From NCBI GenBank assembly GCA_028708075.1, contig JAQVZS010000001.1, positions 81,319-145,318 of the forward strand: a stretch of 64,000 bases of DNA, given 5' to 3'. Position 1 is the stretch's first letter. Each line of letters starts with the position of its first letter. The DNA is from Massilibacteroides sp. (GTDB lineage: Bacteria > Bacteroidota > Bacteroidia > Bacteroidales > Tannerellaceae). Shown here piece after piece: positions 30,144 through 49,455 of this stretch. The notes beneath the pieces are model-generated. The model was not told the DNA's origin and searched no databases. It saw nothing but the letters and a program-made list of their open reading frames with translations. The translations under genes and the position numbers were made by a program.

Positions 30144-34952
<4,809 letters not shown>

Positions 34953-34964
34953 TTACACCTCCTT

Positions 34965-35933
34965 TTAATCTTCTCGGCCGGCTATCGTTTTTATGGAACC
35001 GTCGGGCAGATATTCTAACTCCACGACCTTTAAGCTGCGTAGCCAGGTTTTTCCGTTTGAAGGTACGCAATCATGGTGAAACAAATACCATTTTCCTTTA
35101 AATTCTACAATTGCGTGGTGCGTTGTCCACCCCACAACCGGTGTTAAGATAACACCCTGATATGTAAATGGCCCGTACGGATTATCACCCGTTGCGTAAC
35201 AAAGCAGGTGGGTGTCTCCTGTGGAATAGGAATAATAGTATTTCCCCTTGTATTGATGCATCCAGGAAGCTTCAAAAAAACGACGTTTCGTATCATCGGC
35301 CGTCAAAGGTTTACCGTTTTTGTCCAAGATCAGCACATCGTGCGGTTCCTCCGCGAACTCCAGCATATTCTCGCTGAGTTTGACTATCTTTCCGCAAAGT
35401 GCGGGTTCTTCTCCTTCTGGTAGAATTGCGCATTCCAGTGCTTTATTGTTCCGGTAGCGTTGCAACTGACCGCCCCACAAACCTCCGAAATACATATAAT
35501 ATTCTCCGTTTTCTTCTACTATTGCCGGGTCGATGCTGTAACTGCCTCTGATCGGATCCGGCATCGGGACAAACGGGCCTTCCGGGCGGTCGCTTACCGC
35601 TACACCGATGCGGAAAATATCCGTTTTGTCTTTTAAGGGAAAATACATGTAATACTTTCCGTTTTTACAAGCCACATCACAATCCCAGAGTTGGCGTCCT
35701 GCCCAGGGAATATCTTTAACCTCGAGAACAACTCCATGATCCGTGACTTCCCCGTCGATTTCATCTAAGGAAAAAACATGATAGTCCTTCATGTTAAAAT
35801 GGTCTCCATTATCATTTTCCGGAATACCGCTTTCCCAGTCGTGCGACGGATAAATATACAATCTGTCGTTAAACACATGTACGGCAGGATCTGCCATATA
35901 ATCACCCGGAACTAAATATCTTGCTTTTTTCAT
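34965..35933 (-). CDS. GH43 family enzyme, no signal peptide (xylosidase/arabinofuranosidase)
   Basis: MADPAVHVFNDRLYIYPSHDWES ... AGRQLWDCDVACKNGKYYMYFP ... SIDPAIVEENGEYYMYFGG. Confidence 0.9.
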   Translation of the reverse strand: MKKARYLVPGDYMADPAVHVFNDRLYIYPSHDWESGIPENDNGDHFNMKDYHVFSLDEIDGEVTDHGVVLEVKDIPWAGRQLWDCDVACKNGKYYMYFPLKDKTDIFRIGVAVSDRPEGPFVPMPDPIRGSYSIDPAIVEENGEYYMYFGGLWGGQLQRYRNNKALECAILPEGEEPALCGKIVKLSENMLEFAEEPHDVLILDKNGKPLTADDTKRRFFEASWMHQYKGKYYYSYSTGDTHLLCYATGDNPYGPFTYQGVILTPVVGWTTHHAIVEFKGKWYLFHHDCVPSNGKTWLRSLKVVELEYLPDGSIKTIAGRED

Positions 35934-37072
35934 TTTTGATTTTTTTTTGATTGAGCTATCGTTATAATTTTATTCACAACCACTTTCGGCTGATTGTTTC
36001 TGTCGAAAAGCAATGGATAATCCGTTCGCCCGAATACAGGAAAATTATTTTTCCACGAGTCTTTGTCCGAAATTCCCCACATGGTTACACGTGAGACTTT
36101 ATCCGCGTGTTTCAGGAATAAGCTAAAGAAACCCAGCATGCGTTCGTTCCATTGTTTCTGAACGGAATCCGGAACACCCTCAACATACGGATCCAGTTCG
36201 GCACGATACTTGAAATTTTCCGCAATATCGGCACCCACTCCGGCTTTTGGTGTCGGCAGAATCGATAAATCGAATTCGGTGATCATCACTTTAACCCCTT
36301 CTGAGGCATAGTCTGAAATGGCCGCTTCGTATTCTTCCAGCGAAGGGTTGTCCATACCCACGTGTCCCTGTATACCGATCGCGTCGATACGAATGCCTTT
36401 CTCTTTCAACGAACGGATTAAGCGGACAATTCCTTCCCGCTTACCCGGATACCATTCGTTGTAATCATTGTAATACAATTCGGCTTCCGGATCCGTTTCG
36501 TGTGCGTATTGAAAAGCTAAAGGTATAAATTCTTCTCCCAGAATTTCGTAAAATTTGCTTTTGCGGTAGGACCCATCTTCCATTATCGCCTCGTTTACGA
36601 CATCCCAGCCTTTGATCCGACCTTTATAACGTCCAACAATGCTACTGATATGCTTTTTCATGCGCGCTTTCAGGACTTCGGGCGAAACATTTCCGCCCTT
36701 TTCGTCCACACAAAACCAACGGGACAATTGACTGTGCCAGATCAGGGCATGTCCGACGATAAACATCCCGTTTTGTTCGCCGACTTCGACGAACTTGTCG
36801 GCAAGTGAGAAGTCGAATTCTCCCTCTTCCGGATGAATGACCTCACTCTTCATGCAATTCTCTGCGACAATCGAATTGAATTGTGTTTTTAAGATGCGCA
36901 ATCCCGTCGTGTTTTTTCCTGTAATCAGGTTAGTGTTCAGTGCGGCTCCAATATAAAAACTGTCGCTTAAAGACTCTTTTAATGTTTCTTCTTGTTTCGC
37001 GGTCGAGGGCGAACAAGCGGTGAGCATGGCGGTGGAGCCTACTAAAATCAGTGTGCAAAATTTAAGTTTCAC
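35930..37072 (-). CDS. Endo-1,4-beta-xylanase, GH10, lipoprotein
   Basis: Lipobox MLTAC; GHALIWHSQLSRWF, GWDVVNEAIMEDGSYR acid/base, VMITEFDLSILP nucleophile. Confidence 0.95.
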   Translation of the reverse strand: MKLKFCTLILVGSTAMLTACSPSTAKQEETLKESLSDSFYIGAALNTNLITGKNTTGLRILKTQFNSIVAENCMKSEVIHPEEGEFDFSLADKFVEVGEQNGMFIVGHALIWHSQLSRWFCVDEKGGNVSPEVLKARMKKHISSIVGRYKGRIKGWDVVNEAIMEDGSYRKSKFYEILGEEFIPLAFQYAHETDPEAELYYNDYNEWYPGKREGIVRLIRSLKEKGIRIDAIGIQGHVGMDNPSLEEYEAAISDYASEGVKVMITEFDLSILPTPKAGVGADIAENFKYRAELDPYVEGVPDSVQKQWNERMLGFFSLFLKHADKVSRVTMWGISDKDSWKNNFPVFGRTDYPLLFDRNNQPKVVVNKIITIAQSKKNQK

Positions 37073-38595: not shown

Positions 38596-40527
38596 TTATT
38601 CGGTTTGAAAAGGAGACGCGGGAAGCCCAACATTATTTTTTAAGTTGGCTCCTTCCGGATTGTCTCCCCATGCGTAGCGTACTTTTACAGGTTCGTCGAT
38701 ATCTTCGTTCCACACAATTACGTGCTTGTTTTCTATCCGGGCTTTTGCCCATTTGTATTGGTTGTCTTTACCCGCAATCGCGAATCCTTTCAGTTCGTCG
38801 ATTGGTGCGAAGTTGTCTGTACCTTCCCGAAAAGAAAGAATCACCCGGTTGCCTTCAATCCGCATGGATTGATAAATAGGCCCGTCTGCAACGACTGTTT
38901 TATCACCGTAAACAATCCGTTGAGCTTGTAAGGATAGCCGTTTACCGACATCTTTTTTGTTTAGCGGATGAATGTCGTTCCATTCGCCGAGATCGATGGC
39001 TACCGCTAATCCGGTATTTGGCGTGTCCTGAACGACTCGTTTTTGCTCGTTTCTCAGTTCCGCCCAATTACTATTCTGCGGTTGAGCGGATACTTTCATA
39101 AAATTGGGAAGTTGTACGATGAGAAAAGGTAATTTTGGATTGTTCCAAAAACATCTCCAATCTCGAATCAGGGAAGTCAGTAGTGAATAGTATTCGTGTG
39201 GCCGGCCGGTATTTGTTTCACCCTGATACCAGATGACTCCTTTAAAGGTGTTATTTCGGAGCGGTGCGATCATCGCGTTGTAAAAGCCTGTTGGCCGTTG
39301 TTGATAAGTCCCGACACCTTGCAAAGCCGGCATGCGAGTTCCTATCGAATATTTCCAGTCTTTTCTTAGGTCGATCTCACTGTTTTTAAGAATAAGTTTA
39401 TACAATTTGTCGTCTACAAACTCCGGAAATCCGGAATAGCTGATTAAACGGATGGTAATTGTATTTTTGCCGGGTTTCAGCAACTCTTTGGAAACCGTAT
39501 AAATTCGTGGCGGGTATTGGTAAGCCACCGTTCCGACAAAAGAGCCGTTGACAAAGACGGAATCGGCGTCCACAATGCATCCCAGACGTAGGATGGCGTC
39601 TTCTTCCACTTGCTCGACCGATAATTCTATGGTTTTGCGGAACCAGAACGAGCCGTTTACAAACCCCGATGCGTCGTGTGCCCAAGTTTTGTCCGACAGA
39701 TCGGTTTCTTTCCACAAATGGTCGTCGTACTTTGGATCATACCATTGGGGAGTCTCGCGCAGTCCTGGATCTTCTTTATATAAGATGGTATTCCATAAAT
39801 CCCTACGTTCCCCATCTAATTTTCGGGTGTTTTCGACATACGTGTCGAAGCGGTGTAAATCGCGGTCATGCAGATATTGTGGAAAATCTTTCAGCCCGTT
39901 TTCGCTGATCCAGGATTCGATAGGGGATCCGCCGACGGATGAGTTGATGATTCCAACCGGGACTTTTGTTTTTTCATATAGGTCTTTTGCAAAAAAATAA
40001 CAGACCGCGGAAAAAGAAAGTGCGTTTTCAGGTGTTAATTGTTGCCAGGCAACTTCTTTTATCTCGCGTTGCGGTTGATGATAGTTTTCTGCAATGGGTG
40101 TTTTGACATAGCGGATGTTAGAGTTGGTATATTCTTCAACTTCCGAAGCATAAAGATCCAGAACCCGTTTGATAGGTAATTCCATATTCGATTGCCCCGA
40201 GCACAGCCATAGGTCGCCAACCAAAATATCTTTTATCCGAAGGTCGTTGACCGACATGTCGTATGGTCCTCCCGCTTCCGTCGGTGACAAGGTCAGTTTC
40301 CATTCACCACCGGCGTCAGCAATGGTCTGATACGTTTTGTTCAGGAATTTAATAAGAACAATTTCCCCGGCATCTGCCGTACCCCAAATTATGATGTCTT
40401 GATTCCGTTGAAGAACCATTCCGTCGGAAATCAAAACAGGTAGTTTAACCTCTGCTTCGCACCAATGTGCAAAGCAAAAGAGTAAACTAACATTTAAAAC
40501 TAATCTATAAAAAAAGGAATTTTTCAT
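38596..40527 (-). CDS. Sialate O-acetylesterase-like SGNH esterase (probable acetylxylan esterase)
   Basis: LICSDGMVLQRN-type N-terminus (LISDGMVLQRNQDIIIWG), GDLWLCSGQSNMELPI, FKGVIWYQGETNTGRPHEY, NDIHPLNK. Confidence 0.9.
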   Translation of the reverse strand: MKNSFFYRLVLNVSLLFCFAHWCEAEVKLPVLISDGMVLQRNQDIIIWGTADAGEIVLIKFLNKTYQTIADAGGEWKLTLSPTEAGGPYDMSVNDLRIKDILVGDLWLCSGQSNMELPIKRVLDLYASEVEEYTNSNIRYVKTPIAENYHQPQREIKEVAWQQLTPENALSFSAVCYFFAKDLYEKTKVPVGIINSSVGGSPIESWISENGLKDFPQYLHDRDLHRFDTYVENTRKLDGERRDLWNTILYKEDPGLRETPQWYDPKYDDHLWKETDLSDKTWAHDASGFVNGSFWFRKTIELSVEQVEEDAILRLGCIVDADSVFVNGSFVGTVAYQYPPRIYTVSKELLKPGKNTITIRLISYSGFPEFVDDKLYKLILKNSEIDLRKDWKYSIGTRMPALQGVGTYQQRPTGFYNAMIAPLRNNTFKGVIWYQGETNTGRPHEYYSLLTSLIRDWRCFWNNPKLPFLIVQLPNFMKVSAQPQNSNWAELRNEQKRVVQDTPNTGLAVAIDLGEWNDIHPLNKKDVGKRLSLQAQRIVYGDKTVVADGPIYQSMRIEGNRVILSFREGTDNFAPIDELKGFAIAGKDNQYKWAKARIENKHVIVWNEDIDEPVKVRYAWGDNPEGANLKNNVGLPASPFQTE

Positions 40528-40540
40528 GAGCTATGATGCG

Positions 40541-43042
40541 TTAATTTTTTAATCCACTCTCAGGAGGCCCTAAATATGAAGGTTTTACACCGCCGGTATC
40601 GATCACGATTTTTTGCAATACGATTCCCGGATCAAGCGGTCTGAAACGTAGAGTCCATTTGCCTGACGACAGAATATGATGTTTCGTTGCTGTTCGGATG
40701 ATACTTTCCGCCTGCCATTGTCCTAGTTCTCCCCGGTAATGTCCGTTGAAGTTGACTGTTTGTTCTTTCCCGCCAGCTAAAGAAACGGCATAGCTTAATC
40801 CTTTGTTCCCATTGAAGTTTAGAGTAGGCGAGACATATATCTCGATCGAAACTTCACCTGCAGAAGAAAATTCGATGTCGTATTCTAAATAGGTGTTTTC
40901 GTCCGGGATTTTTATAACGGGCGTAGTTGTTACTGCTGAAACTGTTTTCCCCAGATCCGGGATAACCATCCAGCGCGTTTCACCCGGCTGACTTTTTCTT
41001 GAAAAATGAGCAGCTTCGATGGAAATGTAATTGTCTTTTTCCAAGAAAAGAGGAGAGGAGGTCTTTGGGGGTTCAGGAACATAAAAGACTTCCGGCATCA
41101 CATTGAAAGGTGGTTGTTGCCAATACGTATATCCGATATGTGTTTGCGACATCATGTGATTCCATTTTCCGTTTGCGATAGCAGTATGGTAATGTTCCGT
41201 GAGAAGAGAATCTCTTTTAAAATACGCTTTTGCCCGGTCTGCCCACTGATTGGCATTCGGATCGTTCTTTTTTGCCAGATCTCGATTCATCGCAACGGCA
41301 TAATATAGGTCGTACAGATTCGAACAGGCTTGTACGGGATATAAAACCAATTGGTCGTATGCCTCTTTTACGTCGTCAGGCAAGAAGTAATTCAACTTCA
41401 TCGCGTCAAATAATAAGTCGCTGTATTCATTTCGGACACGTTCGAATTCATTGTAATGATGCAGACTGTATGTTTTTGAGTTCAACAGTTCCGGAGTAAC
41501 CCGCCTGTTGTATTTTGTGTATAAATTGATTAGACGGGCAGCTTCTTTTGCATAAACTTCGCCGAACTGACGTGCGCAGAAAGCTTCCGTATGTTTCAGT
41601 AGATTGGTTTCATTAAAACGATCCGGATCCCAAGCCATATCCAGGAAAAACTGAATTGGATATTCCATCGGCTTCAAATCTCCTACATTAACAACCCACA
41701 ATTCCTTTACTCCATAACGATAAGTCAGATTCATCTGTTCCCAGATACGGGGCACCTGAGAAACGTTCAGCCATTTATAATTGCGCGGTCCGCCTACATA
41801 ATCGAAATGATAATACATGCCGTAGCCTCCTTTCCGAGGTTTTGTATTCGGATCAGGCAGTTTGCGCACATTCCCCCAATTATCGTCGCAAAGAAGCAAC
41901 GTTACATCGTCCGGCACGCGCATCCCTTTATCATAATAATCCTGAACTTCTTTATATAGCGCCCAGACCTGAGGTGTTTCCGTTATTTTTTTCTGTGTGA
42001 CATTGGCAATGATTCGGCGTTGATCTTTTACGATTCTTTCCAGTAATGAGATGTTGGCTTCTTCGCTCATCGGCTCGTCACCATCTCCACGCATACCGAT
42101 AGTCACCACCGTTTCATGATCTTTCATGCGTTCCATTCCGTCTGTCCAAAACTTTTTCAAGGTTGTGGCGTTTTTTGTATAATCCCATGTGCCACTGCCA
42201 TAGCGTCTCCATTCATCGTGCGCTCTTCCCAGCGGTTCATGGTGAGAGGTGCCGATGACAATCCCCATTTCGTCCGCCAGCGATCCATTCAACGGATCGT
42301 CGTCATAAAAGGCGCTTCCCCACATGGCCGGCCAAAGAAAATTTCCTTTCAGGCGAAGAATTAATTCGAAGACTTTTTCATAAAACGAATGATTGAAACC
42401 ACCGAAAGTTTCGCTTGCCCAACTGCTTAGCGCCGGCGCCTCGTCGTTTAAAAAAATACCCCGGAATCTTATTGCAGGTTCACCGGCCGTATAGGATCCT
42501 TTTTGAAAGTAAAGATTCTCCTGCTTTCGTATGGGAACATCCGCCCAATAATACCAAGGCGATACCCCGATCTGGTTGGATAATTCATAAATACCGTAGA
42601 TTGTGCCACGTTTGTCACTTCCGGCAATGACCAGTGCCTCGTCTATGCCTGAAAATGGTTTCGACACACATTGGATTAAAAATTTTTCCTTTTTGTTTTC
42701 TAATGCGTTTTTATTTATTTTTTTTTCTTTAATCAATTGGTCGATCCATTGGTTTTTACCGACTGTCCCAATCAATAATACGCGTTTATCCGGGGATAAA
42801 ATCGTATCATAGAGAACCGGTTCGTTTCCGGTCACTTGTTTAAAATCATTTCTTAATGTGTTGATAGCCCGGATGACGCCCGGAAAATCATTTTGGTCAA
42901 TATAAATAGGAATAGTCAACGTGTTTTGGGTTAACACAAACGTTTCGTTTGTCTTTTGGGGGACAATGAATCGTGCTGTTTGTCCGAAAAGACAAACAGA
43001 TAATAATAAAAAAAGAAAGAAAGTCAATATCGTTCTGTTCAT
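40541..43042 (-). CDS. Alpha-glucuronidase, GH115
   Basis: 833 aa; RGIFLNDEAPALSSWASETFGG, LKGNFLWPAMWGSAFYDDDPLNGSLADEMGIVIGTSHHEPLGRAHDEWRR, TIGMRGDGDEPM. Confidence 0.94.
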   Translation of the reverse strand: MNRTILTFFLFLLLSVCLFGQTARFIVPQKTNETFVLTQNTLTIPIYIDQNDFPGVIRAINTLRNDFKQVTGNEPVLYDTILSPDKRVLLIGTVGKNQWIDQLIKEKKINKNALENKKEKFLIQCVSKPFSGIDEALVIAGSDKRGTIYGIYELSNQIGVSPWYYWADVPIRKQENLYFQKGSYTAGEPAIRFRGIFLNDEAPALSSWASETFGGFNHSFYEKVFELILRLKGNFLWPAMWGSAFYDDDPLNGSLADEMGIVIGTSHHEPLGRAHDEWRRYGSGTWDYTKNATTLKKFWTDGMERMKDHETVVTIGMRGDGDEPMSEEANISLLERIVKDQRRIIANVTQKKITETPQVWALYKEVQDYYDKGMRVPDDVTLLLCDDNWGNVRKLPDPNTKPRKGGYGMYYHFDYVGGPRNYKWLNVSQVPRIWEQMNLTYRYGVKELWVVNVGDLKPMEYPIQFFLDMAWDPDRFNETNLLKHTEAFCARQFGEVYAKEAARLINLYTKYNRRVTPELLNSKTYSLHHYNEFERVRNEYSDLLFDAMKLNYFLPDDVKEAYDQLVLYPVQACSNLYDLYYAVAMNRDLAKKNDPNANQWADRAKAYFKRDSLLTEHYHTAIANGKWNHMMSQTHIGYTYWQQPPFNVMPEVFYVPEPPKTSSPLFLEKDNYISIEAAHFSRKSQPGETRWMVIPDLGKTVSAVTTTPVIKIPDENTYLEYDIEFSSAGEVSIEIYVSPTLNFNGNKGLSYAVSLAGGKEQTVNFNGHYRGELGQWQAESIIRTATKHHILSSGKWTLRFRPLDPGIVLQKIVIDTGGVKPSYLGPPESGLKN

Positions 43043-43126: not shown

Positions 43127-43163
43127 AATACGAGACAAAAGTGATCCACTTTTGTCTCGTATT
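43127..43163. terminator. Perfect 17-bp stem, 3-nt loop hairpin
   Basis: AATACGAGACAAAAGTG-ATC-CACTTTTGTCTCGTATT. Confidence 0.75.
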
Positions 43164-43187: not shown

Positions 43188-43247
43188 TTAATTATAGCCT
43201 GGATTTTGATAAGCATCTTTTTCGTTTTCCGTCATTTCCAACGATAC
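43188..43247 (-). pseudogene. Relic of a SusD/RagB-family C-terminus
   Basis: Minus-strand frame encodes VSLEMTENEKDAYQNPGYN* preceded by an in-frame TAA; QNPGY near the stop is typical of SusD-family C-termini. Confidence 0.6.
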
Positions 43248-43271
43248 ATTTTAATTGTTACAAATTGTTTA

Positions 43272-45008
43272 TTAATGATTGGTTTTTACAGCATAAAGTC
43301 CGATAGTAGAACCCGTGAAACCACCGGCCACAGCTGTCGACAGAGGTTTTGCGTCGATTGAATCGCATAACATTTCCCATTCTCCTTCCCCACAGCGGTA
43401 ATAAAAGCTGTAAAAAGTTCCGGAAGAAATCACTTTCAGATAAACAGGCGCTCCTTTGGGGGCTTTGATTATTCTTTCTGTTTCAGGGATAGATTTGGAG
43501 CCGACTGTTTGATTTAAACCTACAATCTTTTGCCCATCTTTTTGTCCGATTGAAAAGAAATACTGATTTTTTTCGTTTTTAAAGAGTAAGATCCCGGCTT
43601 TTTCTTGTTCTGTTTCCGGATCGAATTCGATGCTGGTCGTACATTCGAATTGATGATGTTGCATACGTCGCGTGACAAACGCCGGTGTTTTTTTCTCTGT
43701 AGCTGATATATCCGAACATACTAATTGCAGAAAGCCCGGCTCGTTTGTTAACGAATATAAATCGGAAGCAGGAGCTCTCAGGGTGAGCCATTCCATGCCC
43801 AGCGCAGTTTTGTCGAAATCGTCTTTCCATATGAAGTTCCCGAAAGTTACGTTCTCGTTTCGTTTTACGCCGTCTCTTTTTAGTACTAAAGGAATCAGAT
43901 CATCTCCCTGTGTCATATACGGAAATCCGTCGTCGCTCCACTTTACGGGCATCATGAATGTCTCCCTCCCCAAGTTCTCAAATTCATTATTTATCGGTCT
44001 ACAGGCTAGAAAAACAGCCCACCAATCTCCTTCTTTGGTTTGGATCAAATCCGCATGTCCGGCGCACGTAATTGGGTCGGGACGATCCGGTGCAAGATGT
44101 TTTTGCGTCAGAATTGGATTTTTTTCCCACGGTGTAAAGTCACCCATAGGAGCGTTTCCGCTGAAAATAACTTCCGTATGATTTGTTCCTGTTCCGCCTT
44201 CGGCCGCCATCAAATAATACTTGCCATTGATTTTATACATGTGCGGACCTTCGATCCAGATTGGTTTTTCCGCTAGATTTACGCCTCCGTTCACTAACAT
44301 TTTCCACGAACCTTTCGTTTGGTCTGTTTCCACGTCGAATTCGCGGATGCGAATCGAACGATGACCGTCGTACAACTCTTTGCCGTCCATGCCGTCGTTG
44401 TTAATAATATAGGCGCGTCCGTCTTCATCAAAGAAAAACGACGGATCGATACCACCGACTTCCGGTAAGAAAATCGGATCTGACCAGGAATCGAACGGGT
44501 CTTTTGTTTTAACAAAGAAGTTCCCGGCTCCTACATTCGTGGTTATCATATAATATGTTTGGTTGTGGGGATTGTAGCTGATGGCCGGGGCAAAAATTCC
44601 ACCGCTTATATGCTGTCCTTCCATGTTAAGCAGTTGAGACGGACGGTCTAAAACATACCCTATTTGTTCCCAGTTTACCAAATCCGTGCTGTGGAATATC
44701 GGAACTCCCGGATAGTATGTAAAAGTAGAAGTAACTAAGAAATAGTCTGTCCCGTTTGTACATATACTCGGATCTGAATACCAGCCCGGCAGGATGGGAT
44801 TGTAAAACTGATCCTCTTCTGTCAAAGGATGGTTATTATAGTAATTGTCGTTTCCGACATACGCGAAATAATCGAAGTAAGCGACGGATTCTCCATTCTC
44901 GTTTACCTGTTTTTTCGAGTTTTGGTTTACAGAACACCCAGGTAAAATGAGTGATAAAACGAGCAAACTAAAAAAAAAGTTTATGCGAAAACTGTGTTTC
45001 TTTTTCAT
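43272..45008 (-). CDS. GH43 family lipoprotein
   Basis: Lipobox LILPGC; FYNPILPGWYSDPSICTNGTDYFLVTSTFTYYPGVPIFHSTDLVNWE. Confidence 0.92.
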   Translation of the reverse strand: MKKKHSFRINFFFSLLVLSLILPGCSVNQNSKKQVNENGESVAYFDYFAYVGNDNYYNNHPLTEEDQFYNPILPGWYSDPSICTNGTDYFLVTSTFTYYPGVPIFHSTDLVNWEQIGYVLDRPSQLLNMEGQHISGGIFAPAISYNPHNQTYYMITTNVGAGNFFVKTKDPFDSWSDPIFLPEVGGIDPSFFFDEDGRAYIINNDGMDGKELYDGHRSIRIREFDVETDQTKGSWKMLVNGGVNLAEKPIWIEGPHMYKINGKYYLMAAEGGTGTNHTEVIFSGNAPMGDFTPWEKNPILTQKHLAPDRPDPITCAGHADLIQTKEGDWWAVFLACRPINNEFENLGRETFMMPVKWSDDGFPYMTQGDDLIPLVLKRDGVKRNENVTFGNFIWKDDFDKTALGMEWLTLRAPASDLYSLTNEPGFLQLVCSDISATEKKTPAFVTRRMQHHQFECTTSIEFDPETEQEKAGILLFKNEKNQYFFSIGQKDGQKIVGLNQTVGSKSIPETERIIKAPKGAPVYLKVISSGTFYSFYYRCGEGEWEMLCDSIDAKPLSTAVAGGFTGSTIGLYAVKTNH

Positions 45009-45357: not shown

Positions 45358-48300
45358 ATGAGAATCATATTTGTCCTATTTGTTCTGAATATTTTCGTGT
45401 TTGCTCATTTAAAAGCAGAATCCGGAAGAATGTTTTCGGCAGACAAAGAGCTATCGAACAGTCTTCTTTACGATATGCATCAGGATTGTTATGGGGTGAT
45501 TTGGATTGCTACCGAAGATGGGTTGAATCGATACGATGGGTCTAAATTTACCATATACAGGCACGATAATAAAAATCCGAAATCGTTACAACATAATTAC
45601 GTTCGTGTTCTTTTTGAGGATAGCCAAAAGCGTTATTTTATCGGTTTATTGAACGGACTTCAACTTTACGATCATGCTACGGATACGTTTGAAAAGGTTC
45701 TTATGCTCAATAAATCAGGGATAGAACTTAGCCCTCATGTGTTTAGCATATTAGAACGAAAAAATCATGAAATTTTAATCGGAACTTCCGGACAGGGGAT
45801 TTTTAAACTTGTCCAAGATAAAGATAGATTTTTTGCGCTTCAAGTTTACAATGATGAAATTAGCTATTTTATCAGTTGTTTGTATGAAGACCAGAAAGGA
45901 AATCTGTGGGTAGCGACTCAGGATAAAGGCCTTTTTCGCTTGAACCATAACTATGTGTTGAAGAGCTTCTTAAAAAATGGAGACGTAGGGTTGAATAGCA
46001 TTTCCAGTATTTGCGAAGATGAAGAAGGACATGTTCTGGTGGGCAGTTTGACGAAAGGCCTTTTTATGCATGATGAAAAAACAGATTCTTTTTTGCCGGT
46101 AGATTATTCGGGGGGGCGCAATCTGCCGATTAAAACTTTGTTTATTAATTCGCCCGAAGAAATTTTTCTGGGAACCGATGGATTGGGCATGAAAATATAC
46201 AAAACAAAAGAACGGGCAATTGTCGACACAACTTTCAATATTTCCAGTTTTAATTTTGAAAAATCCAAAGTTCATTCCATTTTACGGGATAACGCAGGAA
46301 ATACGTGGCTGGGTATCTTTCAGAAAGGGGTGATCCTTATCCCGGAACAGACGAATAAGTTCAATTATATTGGGTATAAATCGGTCCGCTACAATACAAT
46401 CGGAACAAATTGTGTTATGTCACTTTGTGAAGACCGGAACGGGATCGTGTGGGTTGGGGCGGATAACGATGGAATATACGGGGTACATCTGAAAGGTGGG
46501 CAGTATGCTCATTTTTATCCAACAGGCAAACCTAATTCTGTGCCTTCTACGCTCATGGCTATTTTTGAAGATTCGAACCAGGATTTGTGGCTTGGGTCTT
46601 ATCTGAATGGAATGGGACGGTTTGACAGGAATAACGGACGGTATGAGCAGGTAAAAGAATTGGTCGATGATAACGGCAGTCCCATTGAGCGGGTGTACTG
46701 TTTTGCGGAAGACTGGGAAAAGAATTTGTGGGTTGGCACGCATGGAGGTGGACTTTATCGGATGGATTTGCGTACGCGCAAAATCACGAATTTTAACCGG
46801 CCTGCGGATATGGGGTATGGCAATGAACAGAATGTTCTGGCGAATTATTGGATTAATTGTTTGTTACTTTCGTCCGACAGTACAAAATTGTATATCGGGA
46901 CGTATGATGGTTTACTTTGTCTGGATATCCCGAAGAATGATTACGGATCTACTTTTGGTACGGTGCAGTTGCTCAAAACCCGTGTGATTTATTCTATTTA
47001 TGAAGATAAACCGGGGAATATCTGGTTAGGAACGTCTGAAGGATTAATACGCGTGGATAAAGATACGCATGCGCTATCATCTTATTCGACGGAAGATGGT
47101 TTGTCAAGCAAAGTGATTTGTGCGATCCGCGGTGATCAGGCGGGTAATTTATGGATCAGTACGCATTATGGTATTTCCCAGTTTAATCCTGAAAGAGAAG
47201 ATTTTATCAATTATTATGCCAGCGACGGACTGCAAGGAAACGAGTTTAGTAAATGTGTTTCGTTTATTGATCATAACGATAATATCATTTTCGGAGGGAT
47301 CAACGGCATTACTTATTTTGATCCCAGCGAAATAAAATTTCAGAAAAAAAAGCTCGATGTACGTATTTCTGATTTTTATATTCATGATCAGCCTGTCCGA
47401 AAGGGGACGAAATCCGGTTCGAAGTCTGTGATAGATACGACGGTGGTAGATGCGAATGTTTTTCATCTGTCGCAAAAGGATAATTCGTTTAGTATCGAAT
47501 TTACGGTAATGGAATTTAATACGCCCGAGCGGATTGTTTATTCGTATAAGGTTAACGATGAGAACTGGATTAGTCTACATCCTGGCACGAACCGTGTTTC
47601 GTTTAGTAATCTTACGCCCGGAAATTATTATTTCAAAGTGAAAGCGAAAGATTATAATTCTTATTCCGACGAAAAAAGTATATCTGTAATTATATCTCCC
47701 GTATGGTATTTCTCTACGTGGGCGAAATTAGTTTATTTCTTATTGTTTCTCTCAATGCTCTATTTGATTGTCTTGCAGGTACGACAGCGTTATCGCTCAC
47801 GACAACGATTATTGCAACATCGGCATGAACAGGAAATTAATGAAGCTAAGTTACAGTTTTTTATGAATATCGCCCATGAAATACGAACACCTATGTCGCT
47901 GATCATTAGTCCCCTGAAAAAACTGATGACGACGGATACGGACAAAGAAAGACGGAAAAGTTATGGAATGATCAATCGGAATGCCGAACGGATTTTAAAC
48001 TTGATCAATCAATTGATGGATATCCGGAAAATCGATAAAGGTTTGATGACTTTAAAATTTCAAGAGGTAGAAATGGTTTCCTTTTTAAAGGAATTATGTC
48101 ATTATTTCGAATACCAGAGTAAAACGAAAAATATCCGTTTTTCTTGCAGTTCTGTTTTTGAACGGTTGGACGTGTGGGTAGATCCGAAAAACTTCGACAA
48201 AATTATCATGAATGTGCTTTCGAATGCATTTAAATATACACCTGAAGGAGGCGAAATCAATATTTGTGTAGACGTCAGCGAGGTTCGCAAAAAAAAATAT

Positions 48301-49455
48301 TGCCGGATTATTATTTCGGACACGGGGATCGGCATCCGGGAAGACGAACTGGAACTTATCTTCGAACGTTTTTATCAGATACGCAACAGCTGTAACAACT
48401 CAAATGTCAGTACTGGTATCGGACTACATTTGACCCGTTCGCTGGTCGAATTGCATCATGGCGAGATCAAGGCGGAAAGTCGGGTGAACGAAGGTACGCG
48501 TTTTATTATTCAATTACCTTTGGGTTGTGAGCACTTGAAGACAGAAGAAATTGAAGAAAATCCGGATTTGAAAATGGAATGCCCGGCTTCGTCAGAAGCC
48601 TTTTCTAGACCGTTTGAAGATGAGGATACGAAGATTCGGTCGAAGAGTAAACGTCGAGTTATGATAATTGACGATGAAGAAGAAATACGGAAATATGTGG
48701 CTGGAGAATTAGCGGGAGAATATCACATGATTGAATGTTCGGATGGGAAAGATGCTTTGCCGATGATTCTGAAAATAAAACCAGATTTGGTGATCAGCGA
48801 TATTATGATGCCCGGAATGGACGGAATCGCCCTTTGCCGGAAAATTAAACAAAATGTGAATATCAATTATATTCCGGTTATTCTTCTGACGGCTAAAACC
48901 AAAGAAGAAGACAATTTGGAGGGTTTGAGCATCGGAGCTGACGCTTATATCGTAAAGCCCTTTTATATCGAACTATTGAAGAAGACGGTGGAAAACCTTA
49001 TTCGTAACCGTGAAATCCTTCGGAACACGTATAAGGGTAGCCAACAGCAAGAGGATAAAATCACGAAGATACAGATTAAATCGGCGGATGAAAAATTGAT
49101 GGAAAGGGTGATGAAAGTGATTAACGCGAATCTGGCGAATCCGAAATTGAATGTGGAAATGATTGCAGAGGAAGTTGGAATCAGTCGGGTACATTTACAT
49201 CGTAAGTTAAAGGAACTGACTAATCAATCAACGCGCGATTTAATTCGGAATATTCGCTTGAAACAGGGGGCAGATTTGTTGGCGGATAAGAATTTGACCA
49301 TTTCCGAAGTGGCGGAAGCGACAGGTTTTACCAATCTGGGTTATTTCTCCAATGCCTTTAAAGATCTTTACGGCGTTCCCCCAAGTAGTTATATGGAAGA
49401 ACACCGTAAACATTCTACGGGATCCGGCTCTTCAACAGAAAACGAATCGGTATAA
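45358..49455 (+). CDS. Hybrid two-component system regulator (Reg_prop sensor, Y_Y_Y, HisKA, HATPase, REC, AraC HTH)
   Basis: 1365 aa; NIAHEIRTPMSLI, NVLSNAFKYTPEGG, VISDIMMPGMDGIALC, C-terminal AraC HTH (ISEVAEATGFTNLGYFSNAFKDLYGVPPSSY). Confidence 0.97.
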   Translation: MRIIFVLFVLNIFVFAHLKAESGRMFSADKELSNSLLYDMHQDCYGVIWIATEDGLNRYDGSKFTIYRHDNKNPKSLQHNYVRVLFEDSQKRYFIGLLNGLQLYDHATDTFEKVLMLNKSGIELSPHVFSILERKNHEILIGTSGQGIFKLVQDKDRFFALQVYNDEISYFISCLYEDQKGNLWVATQDKGLFRLNHNYVLKSFLKNGDVGLNSISSICEDEEGHVLVGSLTKGLFMHDEKTDSFLPVDYSGGRNLPIKTLFINSPEEIFLGTDGLGMKIYKTKERAIVDTTFNISSFNFEKSKVHSILRDNAGNTWLGIFQKGVILIPEQTNKFNYIGYKSVRYNTIGTNCVMSLCEDRNGIVWVGADNDGIYGVHLKGGQYAHFYPTGKPNSVPSTLMAIFEDSNQDLWLGSYLNGMGRFDRNNGRYEQVKELVDDNGSPIERVYCFAEDWEKNLWVGTHGGGLYRMDLRTRKITNFNRPADMGYGNEQNVLANYWINCLLLSSDSTKLYIGTYDGLLCLDIPKNDYGSTFGTVQLLKTRVIYSIYEDKPGNIWLGTSEGLIRVDKDTHALSSYSTEDGLSSKVICAIRGDQAGNLWISTHYGISQFNPEREDFINYYASDGLQGNEFSKCVSFIDHNDNIIFGGINGITYFDPSEIKFQKKKLDVRISDFYIHDQPVRKGTKSGSKSVIDTTVVDANVFHLSQKDNSFSIEFTVMEFNTPERIVYSYKVNDENWISLHPGTNRVSFSNLTPGNYYFKVKAKDYNSYSDEKSISVIISPVWYFSTWAKLVYFLLFLSMLYLIVLQVRQRYRSRQRLLQHRHEQEINEAKLQFFMNIAHEIRTPMSLIISPLKKLMTTDTDKERRKSYGMINRNAERILNLINQLMDIRKIDKGLMTLKFQEVEMVSFLKELCHYFEYQSKTKNIRFSCSSVFERLDVWVDPKNFDKIIMNVLSNAFKYTPEGGEINICVDVSEVRKKKYCRIIISDTGIGIREDELELIFERFYQIRNSCNNSNVSTGIGLHLTRSLVELHHGEIKAESRVNEGTRFIIQLPLGCEHLKTEEIEENPDLKMECPASSEAFSRPFEDEDTKIRSKSKRRVMIIDDEEEIRKYVAGELAGEYHMIECSDGKDALPMILKIKPDLVISDIMMPGMDGIALCRKIKQNVNINYIPVILLTAKTKEEDNLEGLSIGADAYIVKPFYIELLKKTVENLIRNREILRNTYKGSQQQEDKITKIQIKSADEKLMERVMKVINANLANPKLNVEMIAEEVGISRVHLHRKLKELTNQSTRDLIRNIRLKQGADLLADKNLTISEVAEATGFTNLGYFSNAFKDLYGVPPSSYMEEHRKHSTGSGSSTENESV

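Follow-up and report, generated by a model that had tools for sequence, protein, structure and literature searches.

SusCD pairs are used as markers for calling PULs. The XOS PUL BVU_0037-BVU_0043 of Bacteroides vulgatus ATCC 8482 has a metagenomic copy, F5, whose SusD-like protein is the one in PDB entry 7NEK and is 99.4% identical to BVU_0037; in a recombinant system, growth on XOS was found to require the SusD of the F5 PUL (PMC9599597). PULs that have lost such a pair have also been described. Of 23 strains belonging to B. ovatus and B. xylanisolvens, 11 are without the surface GH10, SusC, SusD, and HTCS of PUL-XylS, and the GH67-GH43-GH10 core is kept (PMC4491172). In B. xylanisolvens XB1A the remnant of PUL-XylS, rPUL 70, has no susC/D and is induced by xylan via the HTCS of another PUL; this strain retains a second xylan PUL (PUL 43, with two tandem susC/D pairs) that cross-regulates rPUL 70 (PMC4855328).

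Here we describe a xylan locus in Massilibacteroides sp. (contig JAQVZS010000001.1) from which susC and nearly all of susD have almost certainly been deleted, leaving a scar at 43241-43188. Positions refer to the window, which is the whole stretch of 64,000 nucleotides that was analyzed. The features of the locus are as follows.

30144..31724, minus strand, third GH43
31721..32872, minus strand, putative esterase (PF00756)
32880..34952, minus strand, GH67 alpha-glucuronidase, a separate gene of 690 aa
34965..35933, minus strand, second core GH43, with no obvious signal peptide
35930..37072, minus strand, GH10 xylanase with a lipobox-like signal, the sole GH10 in the genome
37090..38580, minus strand, MFS_2 inner-membrane sugar symporter
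38596..40527, minus strand, SASA-type carbohydrate esterase, also in Massilibacteroides sp. STF2_31 and absent here in Parabacteroides sp. PM6-13 and PFB2-10
40541..43042, minus strand, GH115 alpha-glucuronidase with its start at 43042, right flank of the proposed deletion
43127..43163, minus strand, hairpin with a 17-bp stem and a 3-nt loop, 3' of the former susD stop
43188..43241, minus strand, putative susD remnant, the last 17 sense codons and TAA of a BVU_0037-type susD (LEMTENEKDAYQNPGYN and stop)
43242..43271, minus strand, A+T-rich spacer of 30 nt from the GH43 stop to the susD remnant, with the junction at its inner end
43272..45008, minus strand, GH43 of the beta-xylosidase/arabinofuranosidase type with a GH43_C2 domain, left flank of the proposed deletion
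45358..49455, plus strand, HTCS hybrid two-component regulator, divergent from the GH43 gene

All of the protein-coding genes in this list, from the HTCS to the third GH43, are open frames. The CAZymes and linked regulator of a PUL are present (GH43, GH115, GH10, GH67, and the HTCS), and the adjacent susC and susD that characterize a canonical PUL are not, as no PF07980 SusD was found in the window and the 17-codon remnant is all that is left. By gene content, with a syntenic core retained and the SusCD of a complete PUL gone, the locus belongs with PUL remnants of the rPUL 70 type. Two further observations concern its enzyme families. In two Parabacteroides loci (L063:361-3594 and L065:11255-14551) the GH67 forms the C-terminal part of a frame of ~1,080-1,100 aa, in which it is preceded by about 400 additional residues, compared with the separate GH67 of the window. 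Additionally, a relative of GH43 lies in pieces elsewhere in the same genome (G000:C22:45446-46864, outside the window), spread over several frames with one internal TGA; the pieces have 49%, 36%, 40%, and 33% identity and possibly represent another GH43 copy that has decayed or was mis-sequenced.

When the window is read directly, the minus strand from 43247 to 43188 encodes VSLEMTENEKDAYQNPGYN followed by TAA. The homology to SusD begins at the Leu codon at 43241, and the residues N-V-S on its 5' side cannot be aligned, so that the remnant comprises 54 bp (43241-43188; TTG GAA ATG ACG GAA AAC GAA AAA GAT GCT TAT CAA AAT CCA GGC TAT AAT TAA) encoding LEMTENEKDAYQNPGYN and a stop. The TAA of the GH43 gene occupies 43274-43272 and an in-frame TAA follows at 43253-43251, 18 nt past it. 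The first-pass annotation, which was made from the sequence alone, had reported a minus-strand peptide with its stop between GH43 and GH115 and an in-frame stop about 20 bp after that of GH43, and both are read as it described.

It had also taken this peptide for the C-terminus of a SusD/RagB protein. Scanned on its own, the 20-mer gave no Pfam match, since the peptide is too short, and for the same reason the QNPGY-stop ending by itself is weak evidence. The identity is instead decided by the orthologue-specific part, LEMTxxEKxAY, together with synteny. The orthologous SusD occurs in 17 genomes of the same family. In most of them its C-terminus is (L/M)EMTxxEKxAYQNPGY, with the three most divergent (L092-L094) retaining part of it only. 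The remnant is identical to each of these 17 C-termini at 7-14 of 16 residues, and it scores 50.9 bits on a profile (PSSM) built from them; its conservation equals that of the working orthologues. The closest characterized relative is PDB 7NEK, whose tail MEMTEEEKDAYQNPGY is near the LEMTENEKDAYQNPGY of the remnant. SusD homologues thus do align with the peptide, and the profile, the identities, and the 7NEK tail agree in supporting the original assignment. Judged by sequence, 43241-43188 is the C-terminus of an XOS-PUL SusD of the BVU_0037/PDB 7NEK type. The SusD paralogues of the same genome that have readable C-termini share at most the QNPGY end with it and not LEMTxxEKxAY. Another candidate for the lost gene, the SusD of the tandem xylan SusCD that other GH43 loci carry, was rejected, as its C-terminus (DVTIYPEFTQNPGW) does not fit and the genome contains no close copy of it either (best 33%).

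The intact counterpart was found in Parabacteroides sp. PM6-13. When the intergenic DNA was compared with 61 related genomes, the single strong outside match was G031:C9:45998-46050 in this strain, with 83% identity over 53 bp (window 43240-43188, E 1e-8), and it ends at the same TAA. The GH43 orthologue lies 5.2 kb from this match on the same contig. The gene order in PM6-13 is GH43-susC-susD-GH115-MFS-GH10-GH43-GH67, all on one strand, with a SusC of 1029 aa and a SusD of 647 aa that Pfam confirmed as SusC (plug and barrel) and SusD_RagB. The genes that this locus has in common with the window are in the same order, and their proteins have 68-86% identity. Its SusD tail is MEMTKEEKEAYQNPGYK, compared with LEMTENEKDAYQNPGYN in the window, and the remnant has the position and the orientation of susD in this intact syntenic locus. 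The distance from the GH43 stop to the segment that matches the remnant is 5.1 kb in PM6-13 (susC and susD minus 54 bp), and the corresponding distance in the window is 30 nt. The window therefore has ~5.1 kb fewer at this point, and it has an extra esterase gene; because PM6-13 belongs to a different genus, other gene changes such as the gain of the esterase are superimposed near the locus. The order GH43-susC-susD was also found in Cesiribacteraceae YIM B00369 and in Sinomicrobium pectinilyticum.

A search of the window's own genome found no orthologue of this SusD (best 34%, over part of the length) and none of this SusC (best 35%), and a translocation of the pair was rejected on these grounds. 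The first-pass annotation had proposed that susC and most of susD were deleted from a canonical PUL, and had suggested aligning sister strains to look for the order GH43-susC-susD-GH115. That order with a matching susD tail is what PM6-13 contains, so that at least one relative has the pair in place, and the deletion is supported by homology, by synteny, and by the finding that the pair does not occur anywhere else in the genome. One deletion of ~5.1 kb, reaching from the GH43 gene to codon -17 of susD, would have taken susC and the body of susD. The lost pair would have been the outer-membrane XOS importer (BVU_0037 type, PDB 7NEK) of an HTCS-controlled xylan locus. This was probably one illegitimate event. 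A long repeat was not seen, in a comparison with other lineages and not with the genome's own ancestral sequence. The right breakpoint lies at ~43241/43242, give or take a few nucleotides because the N-V-S codons cannot be matched to Q-L-(D/N)-(G/A). Alignment of the spacer with the GH43 3' flanks of several relatives, with orthologous susC leaders, and with 20 susC leaders of the same genome did not locate the left breakpoint. The score of the spacer against the GH43 3' flank of Massilibacteroides sp. STF2_31 was attained in 15 of 2,000 and 8 of 1,000 shuffles, that against the susC leader of L176 in 6 of 500, and one unrelated susC leader of the same genome was equally good (5 of 500). After so many comparisons the resemblance of the spacer sequence to either the GH43 flank or a susC leader appears unconvincing. 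Deletion-scar homology at 43248-43272, which had been suggested earlier, could accordingly not be established beyond this weak likeness, and because unrelated leaders score alike no microhomology or finer mechanism is claimed.

Two relatives are also without susCD at this locus, and neither has a scar. In Parabacteroides sp. PFB2-10, which is of the same genus as PM6-13, GH43 is followed directly by GH115-MFS-GH10-GH43-GH67 with no susCD and no susD remnant. It resembles the window in having GH43, GH115, MFS, GH10, GH43, and GH67 without susCD, but the endpoints differ, since the stretch that PFB2-10 is missing reaches almost to the start of GH115. Only a few tens of bases (L065:4933-4985) separate GH43 and GH115 in this strain, and the flanks resemble those of PM6-13 on both sides. 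In the congener STF2_31, GH43 is followed by a GH35-like gene and no susCD; the protein (L064:12017-13738) is GH35/GH42-like with DUF5597 (Pfam matches to DUF5597, GH42, and GH35) and stands in the place of GH115. The order susC-susD-GH35-like was found in three other genomes (L184, L186, and L187), where this same gene comes after the orthologous susD.

Downstream of the former susD stop the window retains the hairpin at 43127-43163. In ~14 of the 17 loci where the orthologue is intact, a strong hairpin lies within 130 nt past the susD stop, and its stability exceeds that of all or nearly all resampled controls; the folding z-scores are -4.9 in the window and -5.4 in PM6-13. The hairpin sequences are unrelated between loci and the location is the same, which supports that the remnant retained its native downstream context. 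A terminator scan at 43127-43163 called no canonical terminator because no T-run directly follows the stem. The hairpin could act as an attenuator between susD and the gene that follows it, or could protect a 3' end; a literature search on a stem-loop downstream of susD found none.

Several other explanations of the 54 bp were weighed. That a frame of 19 aa resembles SusD tails by chance might be entertained for a short peptide that Pfam does not recognize and that ends in QNPGY-stop, an ending widespread in SusD generally. On the same profile, however, the runner-up among 127,906 six-frame 16-mers of the window reached 4.0 bits and first-order resampling of the intergenic sequence (2,000 times) gave at most 1.4 bits, and the DNA match to PM6-13 has the same stop in the correct place and orientation; profile score and synteny together refute chance, the probability of which is vanishingly small. 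An assembly artefact, in which the cell carries susCD and GH43 was misjoined to the tail of susD during assembly, draws some plausibility from a draft assembly in 112 contigs and from susC genes that are repetitive in these genomes (81 matches listed). The junction is nevertheless internal to a 276-kb contig, and apart from the arms of its own hairpin the intergenic DNA matches nothing else in the genome strongly, so there is no repeat to explain a misjoin. Moreover, the missing orthologues occur on no contig despite a completeness of 99.75%, and an artefact is highly improbable.

The remnant might also have been retained for a function, either as a short ORF or as an RNA element such as a hairpin spacer that sets the expression of GH115, and both the retained hairpin and the undisturbed reading frame would fit this. 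SusD ancestry already accounts for the conserved peptide, though; a young scar requires no function, and no start signal was identified. We consider a retained function very unlikely, and the remnant itself to be non-functional. A further proposal is a variant on the timing of the deletion and not an alternative to it: the loss may be older, having occurred in an ancestor or a donor, with the deleted locus inherited or acquired as a block, in which case STF2_31 and this genome may share it. This draws on the absence of susCD after the same GH43 in STF2_31 and on the part of its GH43 3' flank that resembles the spacer, with the shuffle counts given above. Against it, STF2_31 has no susD remnant and has the GH35-like gene instead of GH115, and a remnant conserved like working orthologues fits a fairly young loss. 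An older origin is rather unlikely.

Among genomes of the same family that have this GH67 (n = 27), the SusD orthologue was found in 14 and was absent from 13; when only genomes with a completeness of 90% or more and a contamination of 5% or less were counted (n = 13), it was found in eight and absent from five. These counts cross-tabulate the presence of SusD and GH67 with contig breaks and non-acquisition mixed in, and for that reason they suggest repeated loss and do not prove it. Tentatively, loss of the XOS SusCD might be recurrent in the family, as a repeated shift from surface import of XOS to short XOS or xylose entering otherwise, with the HTCS, the enzymes, and the MFS symporter kept. 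The genome of the window has 39 PF07980 matches and seven strong PF12771 matches to other SusD-like genes, and because so many remain, import of XOS by an unrelated SusCD pair may occur. The locus probably remains active on short XOS taken up through another SusCD pair or through porins and then passed on by the MFS symporter.

Since SusCD pairs are the calling marker, loci like this one are missed by PUL predictors, though the enzymes and the regulator remain. The readable scar provides direct proof of loss rather than of non-acquisition, and it names XOS as the likely lost substrate. It also raises the testable question of whether a xylan locus with an HTCS, enzymes, and an MFS symporter is functional without its own outer-membrane importer; the significance of the case would increase only if repeated loss and continued importer-less use of the locus were shown.

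The window can be compared with two known systems. It shares with BVU_0037-BVU_0043/F5 the SusD type of the remnant, and that system combines a SusC/D pair with an MFS symporter for XOS. The window differs in having no susC and a susD cut to 17 codons, and it also carries GH115, GH43, and HTCS genes. With rPUL 70 it shares a xylan core of GH10, GH43, and GH67 together with a sugar transporter, and the SusCD pair is lost in both. XB1A has PUL 43, whereas in the genome of the window the best match to the tandem xylan SusD is 33%, GH10 is single-copy, and a further SusCD pair for xylan was not recognized; unlike rPUL 70, the window keeps its HTCS and a readable scar. It is well supported that this is the same kind of event as in B. 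ovatus and B. xylanisolvens, in another family and with another type of SusCD. It differs from these precedents in that no second xylan SusCD is recognized, that the HTCS is kept, and that the scar can still be read.
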